Below are positions 13,189 to 17,273 of a stretch of DNA of 64,000 nucleotides, piece by piece. The stretch lies in NCBI RefSeq assembly GCF_014524545.1, contig NZ_CP053557.1, forward strand, positions 1,203,501-1,267,500. The letters run 5' to 3'. A program made the translations under genes and the position numbers. This DNA comes from Exiguobacterium sp. Helios. Its GTDB lineage: Bacteria; Bacillota; Bacilli; Exiguobacteriales; Exiguobacteriaceae. How positions within the stretch are numbered: position 1 is the first letter of the stretch; every line of letters starts with the position of its first letter. Under the pieces are notes generated by a model that saw only the letters and a list, made by a program, of their open reading frames with translations, had not been told where the DNA came from and did not search any database.

Positions 13189-15048
13189 TCATTCCGAAGC
13201 TAAAAATTGTTCGTATTGCGCATCGAGCTGTTGGACAAGTTCTTCACGGATAGAAAAAAGTTTCACCGTCTCTTCATAATCCGTCGTTTCAGCAAGTTGC
13301 CGATCAAGCATCTTCAGTTCCTGTTCCAATCGTTCGATCGTCTCTTCTACTTGACGTGTTGTCTGTACTGGAATAGAAGGAGATGGTCGTTTTTTAGCAG
13401 AGACGACGTTCTTCGGTATTTTGGCGTCAGGCGACTGTGTTTGCCGTTTGGTTGACGCATAGACATAGGGACCGGGAAACAGCTCCATCGTCTGATCAAG
13501 CCAAAGGGTCTTCGTAAACAGCCGGTTCAAGAAATAGCGGTCGTGCGAAACGGCGATCAACGTTCCGTCAAACGATTCGAGTGCCTCTTCAAGCGCATCA
13601 CGTGATTCGATGTCGAGATGATTGGTCGGCTCATCCAAAATCAGTACGTTCAAATCGGAGTGGACCAGAACCGCGAGCATCAGCCGCATGCGTTCGCCAC
13701 CACTTAACGCCTCGACCGGTAAGAAGACCCGGGGGCCAAAAAACAAGAACTGGGCGAGACGCTGCCGCGCCGTTCCTTCATCGAGATCAACGGTCGTGCG
13801 AAAAACGTCAATCAAACGTTCACCGGGCGGGAAGTCAACTCGTTGCGACAGGTAGCCGATTTTCACTGACGGTCCACGCGTAATCAGACCGCTTGTCGGT
13901 TCGAGATGGCCTAACAGGAGATGCAATAGTGTGGATTTTCCGCTTCCGTTTGCGCCGACGATGGCGATTCGATCTTTTGCCGAAATCTCAAAGTTTAATG
14001 AATGAAACAACGGTTGTTTAGAGAAGGCAATACTGACATCCTCGACGCGGTAAACCATCCGGCTCGTTTTTCCATGTGCTGCAAACGCAAGATCGGGGGT
14101 CTCGGCGTCAAGCCTTGGGCGTTTGATCCGTTCGATCCGTGCGAGTGCCCGTTCCATCGATTTTGCTTTTCGGAATAGTTTTTCGCTTGGTGGTGACGCT
14201 TCGTTTGCCCATTGCCGCAGACGGCGGATCGCTTCCTTCATCTGCTTGATCTTCTTCTGTTGTTCCTGGTAAGCATGGAATTGCTCAAGTAGAAGGCGTT
14301 CCTTTTCCTTCACGTAAAACGTGTAATTTCCCTGGTACAGCTGAATCTGCCCCTCCTCCAGTTCAGCGATGCGCGTCACGACCGCATCAAGAAACACACG
14401 ATCGTGGGAGACGATCAGGACAGCCCCGGCATAATCGGCTAAAAAGGATTCCAGCCACTCGACGGCGTCTAAATCCAGATGGTTCGTCGGTTCGTCGAGG
14501 ATCAACAACTCCGGCTCGGTCAACAACATCCTTCCGAGGCAGATTTTGGTCTGTTCGCCGCCGCTGAGCTGCTCAAACGGACGGTCCAAAAGGGCATGCA
14601 ACTGCAAGCCGTTAATCATCCGGTCGATTTTGGAATCCAGCAAATACCCGCCTTGGCGCTCAAAAGCTTCGGTCTCTTGCGTGTAGCGTTCGAGCAACTG
14701 ATCGATTTGATCCGTTTTTGTCGCCATGTCCCGTTCGATTTGTTGCAGGGAGCGTTGTAAATCGACAAGCGTGGCGAAGGCAGTCCACAGGACATCACGC
14801 CCCGTCATTACGTTGTCGAACACGGGAAGTTGTGCCAAATAACCGATGGAGAGCCCGCTTTTTTGATAAATCGTTCCGCTGTCTTCGGAATCAAGACGGG
14901 CAATCAAACGTAAGAGCGTCGTTTTACCGCTTCCGTTTCGGCCGATCAAGCCGATGCGGTCTTGGTGCTCGATAAAGAGGGAGACGTCCGTTAAGATATC
15001 GTCGCCTCCGAATTGTTTTGTCAGGTGTTGGATGTCGCAGATCATCAT
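13189..15048 (-). CDS. ABC-F family ATPase (ribosome-associated, candidate antibiotic-resistance type)
   Basis: A soluble tandem ATPase of 619 residues without membrane segments. NBD1 has GRNGSGKTT, LSGGEQ and LILDEPTNHLD. NBD2 has GANGSGKST, LSGGERMR and LILDEPTNHLD. They are separated by a long charged linker (about 235-310, two predicted helices), the element that enters the ribosomal E/P site in this family. A coiled C-terminal tail (about 555-619) follows. ABC-F proteins rescue stalled ribosomes or displace ribosome-targeting antibiotics. The upstream leader ORF and attenuator suggest drug- or stalling-induced expression, which favours a protection role (inference). ATG 15048 is preceded by AGAGAGGAC. 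Confidence 0.88.
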   Translation of the reverse strand: MMICDIQHLTKQFGGDDILTDVSLFIEHQDRIGLIGRNGSGKTTLLRLIARLDSEDSGTIYQKSGLSIGYLAQLPVFDNVMTGRDVLWTAFATLVDLQRSLQQIERDMATKTDQIDQLLERYTQETEAFERQGGYLLDSKIDRMINGLQLHALLDRPFEQLSGGEQTKICLGRMLLTEPELLILDEPTNHLDLDAVEWLESFLADYAGAVLIVSHDRVFLDAVVTRIAELEEGQIQLYQGNYTFYVKEKERLLLEQFHAYQEQQKKIKQMKEAIRRLRQWANEASPPSEKLFRKAKSMERALARIERIKRPRLDAETPDLAFAAHGKTSRMVYRVEDVSIAFSKQPLFHSLNFEISAKDRIAIVGANGSGKSTLLHLLLGHLEPTSGLITRGPSVKIGYLSQRVDFPPGERLIDVFRTTVDLDEGTARQRLAQFLFFGPRVFLPVEALSGGERMRLMLAVLVHSDLNVLILDEPTNHLDIESRDALEEALESFDGTLIAVSHDRYFLNRLFTKTLWLDQTMELFPGPYVYASTKRQTQSPDAKIPKNVVSAKKRPSPSIPVQTTRQVEETIERLEQELKMLDRQLAETTDYEETVKLFSIREELVQQLDAQYEQFLASE

Positions 15049-15072
15049 ATGAAATGTCCTCTCTGGCGCATC

Positions 15073-15102
15073 AAAAAAAGGAGAGCGCAAACAGCACTCT
15101 CC
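15073..15102 (-). terminator. attenuator hairpin in the ABC-F leader
   Basis: GGAGAGTGC / GCGCTCTCC (15080-15088 with 15094-15102) forms a 9-bp stem with a G-U pair. A T7 run follows on the minus strand, ending only about 25 bases before the ABC-F start codon. This position makes it a transcription attenuator rather than an end-of-operon terminator. Confidence 0.85.
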
Positions 15103-15174
15103 TTGACTCGTGGAAGATGCGCTTTGCTTTATTTTTCAGGTATGAGGTTCGTTAAAAAAGGGCAGACTAGTCCC

Positions 15175-15255
15175 TTAGAACGCCATTCCATGAAAAATCG
15201 CGCGCAACAGATACAGTTGTTCCATCAACCAATGCTTACACGCAGCAAAACCCAT
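15175..15255 (-). CDS. 26-residue leader peptide upstream of the ABC-F gene
   Basis: An ORF with ATG 15255 and TAA 15175-15177, preceded by AAAAGGTGGTGTGGAGAC (a GGTGG/GGAG ribosome site). The peptide starts MGFAACKHW and ends FHGMAF. It includes an LLRAIF stretch. It lies between a likely promoter (TGGTAAAAT near 15290-15300) and the attenuator at 15073-15102. A five-bp AAGGG/CCCTT hairpin with T's overlaps its stop codon. The arrangement resembles the ribosome-stalling leaders known for vmlR, lsa/vga-like and msr genes. Translation has not been shown. Confidence 0.6.
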   Translation of the reverse strand: MGFAACKHWLMEQLYLLRAIFHGMAF

Positions 15256-15326
15256 GTCTCCACACCACCTTTTCCGATTCAATACATCTATTTTACCATG
15301 CCTGACAGAAAAGAAAACGTTAATCT

Positions 15327-16208: not shown

Positions 16209-16399
16209 AAAAGTTCCTCCATAAGTTAAGTATCAGGTACTAAATTTAGTCTAATCGACCGGCGACAGAAGAGAATCGGTCTCAAGGACGAGCCGTCATC
16301 CACCTTCCGTCATGTTCCATTGTACAAAAAAATGGAGTGAAATGACGAGAATGGGTCAATTCCACATCAAATCATGATAAACTCAAAACAAATCAAATA

Positions 16400-16497
16400 G
16401 CGACCACTAGGGGAGTCAGTAGGCTGACTGAGACGACGGAGACGTTCGGACCCTTTGAACCTGATTAAGTTTGGACTTACGGAGGGAAGTGGCGTGG
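16400..16497 (+). promoter_or_regulatory. TPP riboswitch (THI element)
   Basis: Conserved thi-box features are present: CTGAGA (16428-16433), ACCCTTTGAACCTGAT (16450-16465) and GGAGGGAAGTGG closing the P1 side. It is followed by a terminator hairpin. It lies directly upstream of tenA, so thiamine pyrophosphate should repress tenA transcription. Confidence 0.95.
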
Positions 16498-16522
16498 ACG
16501 ATCCTCTTTTTATGGTCTTTTC

Positions 16523-16555
16523 ACGTCATGCCTGACATCAGGTGTGGCGTTTTTT
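16523..16555 (+). terminator. expression-platform terminator of the TPP riboswitch
   Basis: A stem ACGTCATGCCTGA / TCAGGTGTGGCGT (16523-16535, 16538-16550) with six T's. The hairpin ends 23 bases before the tenA start. Confidence 0.85.
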
Positions 16556-16577
16556 GATTACAAAAGGGGGAACCAAC

Positions 16578-17273
16578 ATGACATTCAGTGAAGAAATCCG
16601 GCAAGCGGCAAAACGGTATTGGGACAGCAGCTTTACCCATCCATTCGTGACAGGGATTGCGGATGGAACACTACCAGAAGCAAAATTTCGCCATTACGTC
16701 CTACAGGATGCCTATTACTTAAAACATTTCGCGAAAATTCAGGCGCGGGCCGCGTCGAAGGCACAGGACTTCGCGACGATTGCCGAACTCGCGGAACATG
16801 CGACGTCGACCTATGCTGCAGAACTCAGTCTGCATCAATCGTTTTTTGAACCGCTTGGGATTTCGGACAAGACACTGGCAGAGTTTGAACCAGCACCGAC
16901 CGCATATGCGTATATTTCGCATATGCACCATGCAAGTGAAGGGACGCTTGGGGAGACCATCGCTGCGATTTTACCGTGTTACTGGCTTTACTATGAGATT
17001 GGACAACAGTTACAGGCAGCGACACCGGCTTCACCGATTTATCAGCAATGGATTGCGACATACAGTTCCGAATGGTTCGAGCGGGTGGTCTTTGAACAGA
17101 TTGACCGGTTAAATGAGTTGGCAGAGAAGGCGAGTGAACAAGAACGCGTCCGGATGAAACAACATTTCGTCAGAAGCTGTTATTACGAATTGATGTTTTG
17201 GCAGATGGGCTGGGCGGAAGAAACGTTTGAACGGCAGTACGAACAGACGATGGAAATGACATCATCCAAGTAA
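16578..17273 (+). CDS. tenA: aminopyrimidine aminohydrolase / thiaminase II
   Basis: Hydrolyses aminomethyl-pyrimidine from degraded thiamine so that the pyrimidine can be salvaged. The all-alpha protein has 231 residues with LQDAYYLKHF and the active-site Cys134 in LPCYWLYYEIG. I chose ATG 16578, with AAAAGGGGG upstream; the frame extends to 16542 but that part lies in the riboswitch terminator. It is controlled by the TPP riboswitch and is alone in its transcription unit, so it acts in salvage rather than in a thi operon. Confidence 0.95.
   Translation: MTFSEEIRQAAKRYWDSSFTHPFVTGIADGTLPEAKFRHYVLQDAYYLKHFAKIQARAASKAQDFATIAELAEHATSTYAAELSLHQSFFEPLGISDKTLAEFEPAPTAYAYISHMHHASEGTLGETIAAILPCYWLYYEIGQQLQAATPASPIYQQWIATYSSEWFERVVFEQIDRLNELAEKASEQERVRMKQHFVRSCYYELMFWQMGWAEETFERQYEQTMEMTSSK

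Follow-up and report, generated by a model that had tools for sequence, protein, structure and literature searches.

Contig NZ_CP053557.1 of Exiguobacterium sp. Helios carries, in the 64,000-nt stretch that we analysed (the window), an ABC-F protein gene preceded by a short leader open reading frame (ORF), a weak hairpin and an intrinsic terminator, here called T2. The initial annotation had set out these parts in this order without stating a strand; the order is confirmed, and the whole locus lies on the minus strand (Table 1), with a DUF1002 gene upstream of the leader on the same strand. The 26-codon ORF behind a good ribosome-binding site and the strong terminator shortly before the ABC-F gene were both recovered, the end of T2 (U tract included) being separated from the ABC-F start codon (ATG at 15048) by 24 nt. 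Upstream of the leader is an extended −10 element; a good −35 hexamer is absent, and a sigma-70 scan of the window did not report this −10. Transcription may start near 15283, a position tentatively deduced from the extended −10. The weak hairpin, AAGGG-ACUAGUCUG-CCCUU followed by a U run, has a 5-bp stem (predicted −5.9 kcal/mol); its first bases are the final two bases of the leader stop codon, and a 50-nt spacer separates the hairpin element from T2. The 253-nt leader as a whole is more stably folded than its shuffled versions in 199 of 200 cases (z = −3.3).

Table 1 Features of the leader and the ABC-F gene, in window positions
Feature	Position	Strand	Remarks
Extended −10 promoter element TGGTAAAAT	15290..15298	−	Read from sequence
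Leader ribosome-binding site AAGGTGGTG	15263..15271	−	7 nt 5′ of leader ATG
Anti-antiterminator 5′ arm (leader start region)	15244..15263	−	Pairs with 15109–15128
Leader peptide ORF MGFAACKHWLMEQLYLLRAIFHGMAF, 26 codons	15175..15255	−	ATG at 15255 to TAA at 15175
Leader codons R18-A19-I20-F21	15193..15204	−	Shows the widest conservation within the leader; proposed ribosome stall site
Helix B 5′ arm (codon I20 to near the stop)	15178..15198	−	Pairs with 15131–15150
Conserved element AAGGGACTAGTCTGCCCTTTTTT	15154..15176	−	Weak hairpin and T tract; putative pause signal for RNA polymerase
Helix B 3′ arm (just past the element)	15131..15150	−	Predicted in genus genomes
Segment X, anti-antiterminator 3′ arm	15109..15128	−	Part 15113–15123 is the antiterminator 5′ arm
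Antiterminator 3′ arm, also terminator 5′ arm	15093..15102	−	Pairs with 15113–15123
Intrinsic terminator T2 and U tract	15073..15104	−	Hairpin part 15104–15078; AAGGAGAGTGC-TGTTT-GCGCTCTCCTT
ABC-F ribosome-binding site AGAGAGGA	15057..15064	−	Read from sequence
ABC-F protein gene, 619 aa	13189..15048	−	NF000355 match

The ABC-F protein scores 460 bits against the NCBIfam model for 'ribosomal protection-like ABC-F' (NF000355, cut-off 380) and falls far under the cut-off of every named resistance ABC-F family compared (Vga, Lsa, Sal, Msr, OptrA and CplR). The solved structure closest by sequence is 8buu, and the linker between the two ATPase domains is apparently shorter than in the 8buu protein. 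Five more ABC-F-like genes occur in the genome, the nearest 38% identical. Within the genus the gene is present in all 19 species genomes (the window's included), at 58–97% identity in the others. The protein plausibly confers resistance, and would do so by ribosome protection.

Every one of the 19 genus genomes has the leader in this position, with 0–2 of its 26 residues changed (five in the most divergent genome), and the leader ribosome-binding site keeps its position throughout. Six genomes of a sister genus have a VKFVGRTHWTTEHLYILRAIFHDVA leader, and the same order of parts recurs in Halobacillus, Gottfriedia, Bacillus and Paenibacillus, so the layout is not due to chance. Among 13 distinct leader DNAs, codon changes in the leader frame are 13 synonymous and 11 non-synonymous (p = 1.3e-4, with 19% synonymous expected), a bias that the other two frames lack (5/21 and 3/22). 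Together with the conserved start, stop and ribosome-binding site, this bias supports translation of the leader.

Near codons 18–23, leaders of several other genera contain the motif RAIF[H/A] (for example, YVIRAIFHGAKF, YIVRAIFAVIFF, NICRAIFHAIF and YLCRAIFHVTV), and looser forms (RALFH and RANFH) occur in leaders of Halobacillus and Bacillus. The initial annotation did not recognise the peptide as a known stalling leader. MGFAACKHWLMEQLYLLRAIFHGMAF contains no R/K-X-R/K arrest motif of the kind found in macrolide RXR-type leaders (ErmD, TlrB and MefE), and its 26 codons set it apart from the upstream ORFs (uORFs) of three to four codons of the VmlR, Lsa and CplR type. The conservation pattern suggests that a ribosome probably stalls at R18-A19-I20-F21. 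We rate the RAIF-type leaders as a new class and a candidate arrest peptide, which offers a new candidate for resolving the drug and peptide specificities of arrest.

When distant relatives are compared, the most conserved DNA of the region is the weak hairpin. It does overlap the leader stop codon, as had been noted, and it is a sequence-conserved element rather than a poor terminator. Its consensus, from 52 non-redundant sites, is the 25-letter AACGGGANMAGTCTGYCCWTTTTTAA. We searched genomes with the pattern GGGNNNNGTCTGYCCNTTTTT, using the reversed pattern as a control. Within the order, 12 of 38 genomes contain the pattern (0 control matches); among 398 Bacilli genomes it gives 104 matches, spread over 87 genomes and 40 genera, compared with 2 for the control. 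A sample of the phylum composed mostly of non-Bacilli contains just 8 matching genomes among 398, counting the window's; two loci from this sample, L222 and L226, resemble genuine leaders. Positions that the search left unconstrained are also conserved (A−2 in 90%, A+3 in 85% and A+6 in 75%). Copies within the genus have GGC instead of GGG in 8 of 19 genomes, and AGC in one.

Across Bacilli, many mutually unrelated antibiotic-resistance genes stand behind the element. At least 83 of the 99 distinct element sites examined precede genes for ABC-F proteins (66, after removal of one ordinary transporter), Erm (5), RlmA-type methylase (4), Cfr (4), Mef-type pumps (3) or Mph (1), where genes were grouped by similarity clustering and each cluster was named from one representative. 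Plasmid records confirm mef(F)–msr(G) (two records) and ErmD (one record) downstream of the element. A strong terminator follows the element at 63 of 74 non-redundant sites, compared with 3 of 370 shuffles. The leader peptides at these sites belong to several classes with no relation to one another (RAIF, WFVVE, RLR, Cfr-type and others) that broadly track the ABC-F tree; the element cuts across that tree. Conservation of the element as protein can be rejected: some leaders run through it in one of two frames (NGxSLPFF or xxVCPFL) and others end ahead of it, and it must therefore be conserved as nucleic acid.

Searches for related RNAs and partners were negative within their scope. Against Rfam 15, neither leader nor element was matched, whether with gathering thresholds for the window or with E ≤ 1 for six loci. 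No sequence complementary to the loop AGUCUG, as a kissing or pseudoknot partner, was convincingly enriched near the sites, and searching for the ErmD-type leader in phages returned no match. Among the open papers searched, none that is relevant contains the element sequence (the one match was unrelated), although older work on erm(D) and erm(K) may mention it. Elsewhere in the window are two tandem T-box leaders (390–912) and a plus-strand TPP riboswitch (16399–16504) followed by an ORF (16542–17273) that resembles a TenA/thiaminase-type gene. At another locus (L181), a strong Rfam match to ncr1575 (1995–2211) lies on the same contig piece as an element before a Cfr gene.

Several element sites precede genes of other kinds. 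Those before gcvT, ribD, MscS-like, integrase-like and similar genes (L131, L132, L135, L143, L146, L160, L194 and L204) were taken as probable chance terminators. In L125 (element near 1500, with a WFVVE-type leader) and L157, the element precedes a class-I SAM methyltransferase of no specific family that weakly matches UbiG and is a candidate rRNA methylase or drug-modifying enzyme. In L168 and L182, the element and a possible very short leader (MPTTTL and MPSNSL, respectively) stand before a gene for a small Cys-rich protein, a candidate ribosome-related resistance gene whose product weakly matches RluA-type proteins at its C terminus; the leader RNA there is highly complementary to the RNA directly past the element. 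The leader MVNYYDSTVGLAY of L224, from outside the Bacilli sample, stops exactly at an element copy (684), and the longest open frame 501 nt downstream resembles a GNAT acetyltransferase. In L164, a short-chain dehydrogenase gene follows the element and a leader (TGSVCPFF frame) that shows good complementarity to the RNA past the element; this is either chance or an unexpected target. On the mobilizable E. acetylicum plasmid pEYLC1.1 (L119, L217 and L219), from the genus of the window, mef(F)–msr(G) comes after an ErmD-like leader and this element, with a TnsE gene nearby; a similar leader accompanies mef(F)–msr(G) on a Macrococcoides canis plasmid (L220).

Two functions could be considered for the element: ending transcription or delaying it. 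Across 53 non-redundant sites, only a 3-bp core of its hairpin is conserved, the next pair, beside the T tract, is usually a C–U or C–A mismatch, and the median stability is −4.8 kcal/mol, which is too weak for a plain terminator. We also regard as unlikely the related possibility that the hairpin is a first intrinsic terminator, T1, in series with T2. The hairpin is indeed followed by five to six Ts, its stem reaches 5 bp in the window copy, and two adjacent terminators are described for erm(K) (PMC4335068); however, the small conserved core, the adjoining mismatch and the low stability argue against a terminator at this place, and a plain terminator would leave the conserved loop GTCTG unexplained.

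Other properties point to a pause. The RNA directly past the element is complementary to the leader at most sites (mean of −38.3 kcal/mol compared with −30.0 kcal/mol for swapped pairs); at ErmD-type loci, leader pairing with the segment tested was not above background. The T tract lies at the published distance of the NusG motif from a hairpin (TTNTTT at −11 to −6 of the RNA end, with the hairpin 11–12 nt upstream; PMC12288461). It is TTTTTT, an exact fit, in the window and at 63% of non-redundant sites; at 35% it is ATTTTT, with A at the first T of the motif, which counts against the pause reading. The first half of the element (GG, then TG about nine bases on) resembles the elemental pause consensus G−10 Y−1 G+1, as quoted in that review. 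In tlrB, a NusG-dependent pause at the hairpin apex gives the ribosome time to begin the leader while the ribosome-binding site is still exposed (PMC6851288); the pause in vmlR comes after the uORF hairpin and ahead of the terminator (PMC9226507). The sequence and position of the element fit an RNA polymerase pause site as in these two systems, and the RNA 3′ end is predicted near 15149. On the basis of the weak hairpin, the leader-complementary RNA past the element, the NusG-motif spacing and the tlrB and vmlR precedents, we propose that the element is a pause module. We further lean towards the view that it is a general, sequence-specific RNA polymerase pause module that Bacilli reuse to couple transcription to antibiotic-sensing leaders, that has passed among resistance genes differing in chemistry while the sensor peptide was exchanged, and that could be used for finding so far unrecognized genes for resistance to ribosome-targeting drugs.

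In the RNA ahead of the ABC-F gene, three mutually exclusive helices can form: an anti-antiterminator (leader start with segment X), whose 5′ arm partially overlaps the leader ribosome-binding site; an antiterminator (X with the terminator 5′ arm); and T2. In an alignment of 22 sequences, which we made ourselves with a structure taken from one member and in which related sequences are counted repeatedly, the anti-antiterminator has 18 pairs, 7 of them with a compensatory change, and 87% of cells paired; the antiterminator has 10 pairs, 1 of them compensatory, and 94.5% of cells paired; and T2 has compensatory changes in 5 of 11 pairs. These changes are strong, but not independent, support for the anti-antiterminator and terminator helices. 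The evidence for a further helix, B, is weaker, with no compensatory pair in the same alignment.

This complementarity also bears on whether the leader ORF might simply encode a small functional protein, with T2 merely lowering expression. The strong conservation of the peptide across the genus would suit such a protein, but the leader DNA also complements the stretch ahead of T2, with compensatory changes between the two, and in front of other resistance genes this position is taken by leader peptides of unrelated sequence; we find this explanation hardly credible. Regulation of the ABC-F gene mainly at translation, by hiding its ribosome-binding site as in classical erm translation attenuation, has a precedent in tlrB and cplR, which mix transcription and translation attenuation (PMC6851288 and PMC10201436). 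We consider it quite unlikely here, as no hairpin stands out over the ABC-F ribosome-binding site and the strong T2 precedes that site.

Folding of transcripts cut before the T2 3′ arm agrees with a switch. With the leader free, the leader start pairs with X in nearly all genomes; with the leader masked, X pairs with the terminator 5′ arm in nearly every genome. At equilibrium, T2 remains dominant even when the leader is masked (P of 0.93–1.00), so the switch must be kinetic, set by the order of synthesis. Folding and compensatory changes together support a model in which a mutually exclusive terminator and antiterminator are switched by the position of the ribosome. A single ribosome placed at RAIF leaves the helix between leader start and X mostly intact in most genomes; release of X by one stalled ribosome alone is thus unsupported, and queued ribosomes or an earlier stall are needed. 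This requirement is the weakest step of the model.

We favour, with a probability of roughly 0.8, a ribosome-controlled transcription attenuator of the ABC-F gene built round a conserved RNA polymerase pause module. An attenuation mechanism had already been suggested for this locus, and the conserved coding leader, the exclusive helices and the compensatory changes all support it. In the proposed sequence of events, in which we infer the pausing, the stalling and the induction by drug, RNA polymerase would transcribe the leader ORF and then pause at the element, AAGGGACUAGUCUGCCCUUUUUU. By analogy with tlrB, the pause would precede synthesis of the 3′ arm that hides the leader ribosome-binding site, allowing a ribosome to start the leader. 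Without drug, the ribosome would complete the leader and depart, the leader start would pair with X, and X would be unable to pair with the terminator 5′ arm, so that T2 would form and transcription would end. With drug, the ribosome would stall in the leader, probably at R18-A19-I20-F21, with more ribosomes queued behind it, and the leader would be kept unpaired; X would then pair with the terminator 5′ arm once this was made, and RNA polymerase would continue into the ABC-F gene.

On this reading, the leader would sense an antibiotic. It could instead sense slow translation in general, caused by amino-acid shortage or stress, given that any stall in the leader could produce readthrough. That the leader lacks a run of any single amino acid, and that sister loci with the element precede genes against ribosome-targeting drugs (Erm, Cfr, Mef and Mph), makes general sensing very unlikely in our judgement. 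As for which drug the attenuator might sense, a 20-residue arrest peptide would suit a sequence-dependent elongation inhibitor better than blockers of the first steps, although we offer this as a lead only. As a further lead, Ala next to last, with Ile20 in the P site, would fit the context rules of phenicols and oxazolidinones.

Taken singly, the locus is a new member of an already known type of attenuator. The shared element, which is apparently undescribed, gives it a wider meaning, as does the RAIF leader class. Attenuators of resistance genes have so far been studied individually, and pausing has been shown to matter for tlrB and vmlR. If our proposal is true, an element common to about 100 leaders that differ in peptide and gene makes pausing a general and testable part of inducible resistance in Bacilli, and provides a simple DNA pattern that predicts drug-inducible resistance genes, including functionally uncharacterized ones.

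Among the closest parallels is vmlR of Bacillus subtilis (PMC9226507), an ABC-F gene of the same superfamily with which the locus has in common a uORF, an anti-antiterminator, an antiterminator and a terminator. The NusG-dependent pause of vmlR, which comes after the uORF hairpin and before the later arms, matches the placement of the element here; by comparison with its published description, vmlR differs in having a three-codon uORF (MIN) and the pause motif TTATTT, in place of 26 codons and a different, widely shared element. The initial likening of the locus to vmlR and lsa thus holds for the RNA logic and fails for the peptide, which has 26 codons with RAIF rather than the uORFs of three to four codons (MIN and MAGN) of those leaders (PMC10201436).

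B. subtilis tlrB (also yxjB; PMC6851288) likewise combines a terminator with an antibiotic-induced stall and a pause that allows leader translation before the ribosome-binding site is hidden. It differs in its leader (MIIQFIRYR) with an RXR stall motif, in its methyltransferase gene and in a terminator hairpin that begins inside the region covered by the stalled ribosome. The same conserved element as here is found with the MTHSMRLRFPTLNQ-type leaders of erm(D)/erm(K) and mef(F)–msr(G), including those on a Bacillus licheniformis ErmD plasmid and on E. acetylicum and Macrococcoides plasmids. For erm(K), transcription attenuation has been published, as cited in PMC4335068. These loci differ in having a macrolide RLR leader that ends about 42 nt before the element, and in the resistance genes that follow. 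Finally, cplR, vmlR2 and lsa(A) are inducible ABC-F genes with uORF-based attenuation (PMC10201436), as we propose here; whereas their uORFs of three to four codons suit blockers of early elongation, the long leader of this locus suggests a sequence-dependent elongation inhibitor.
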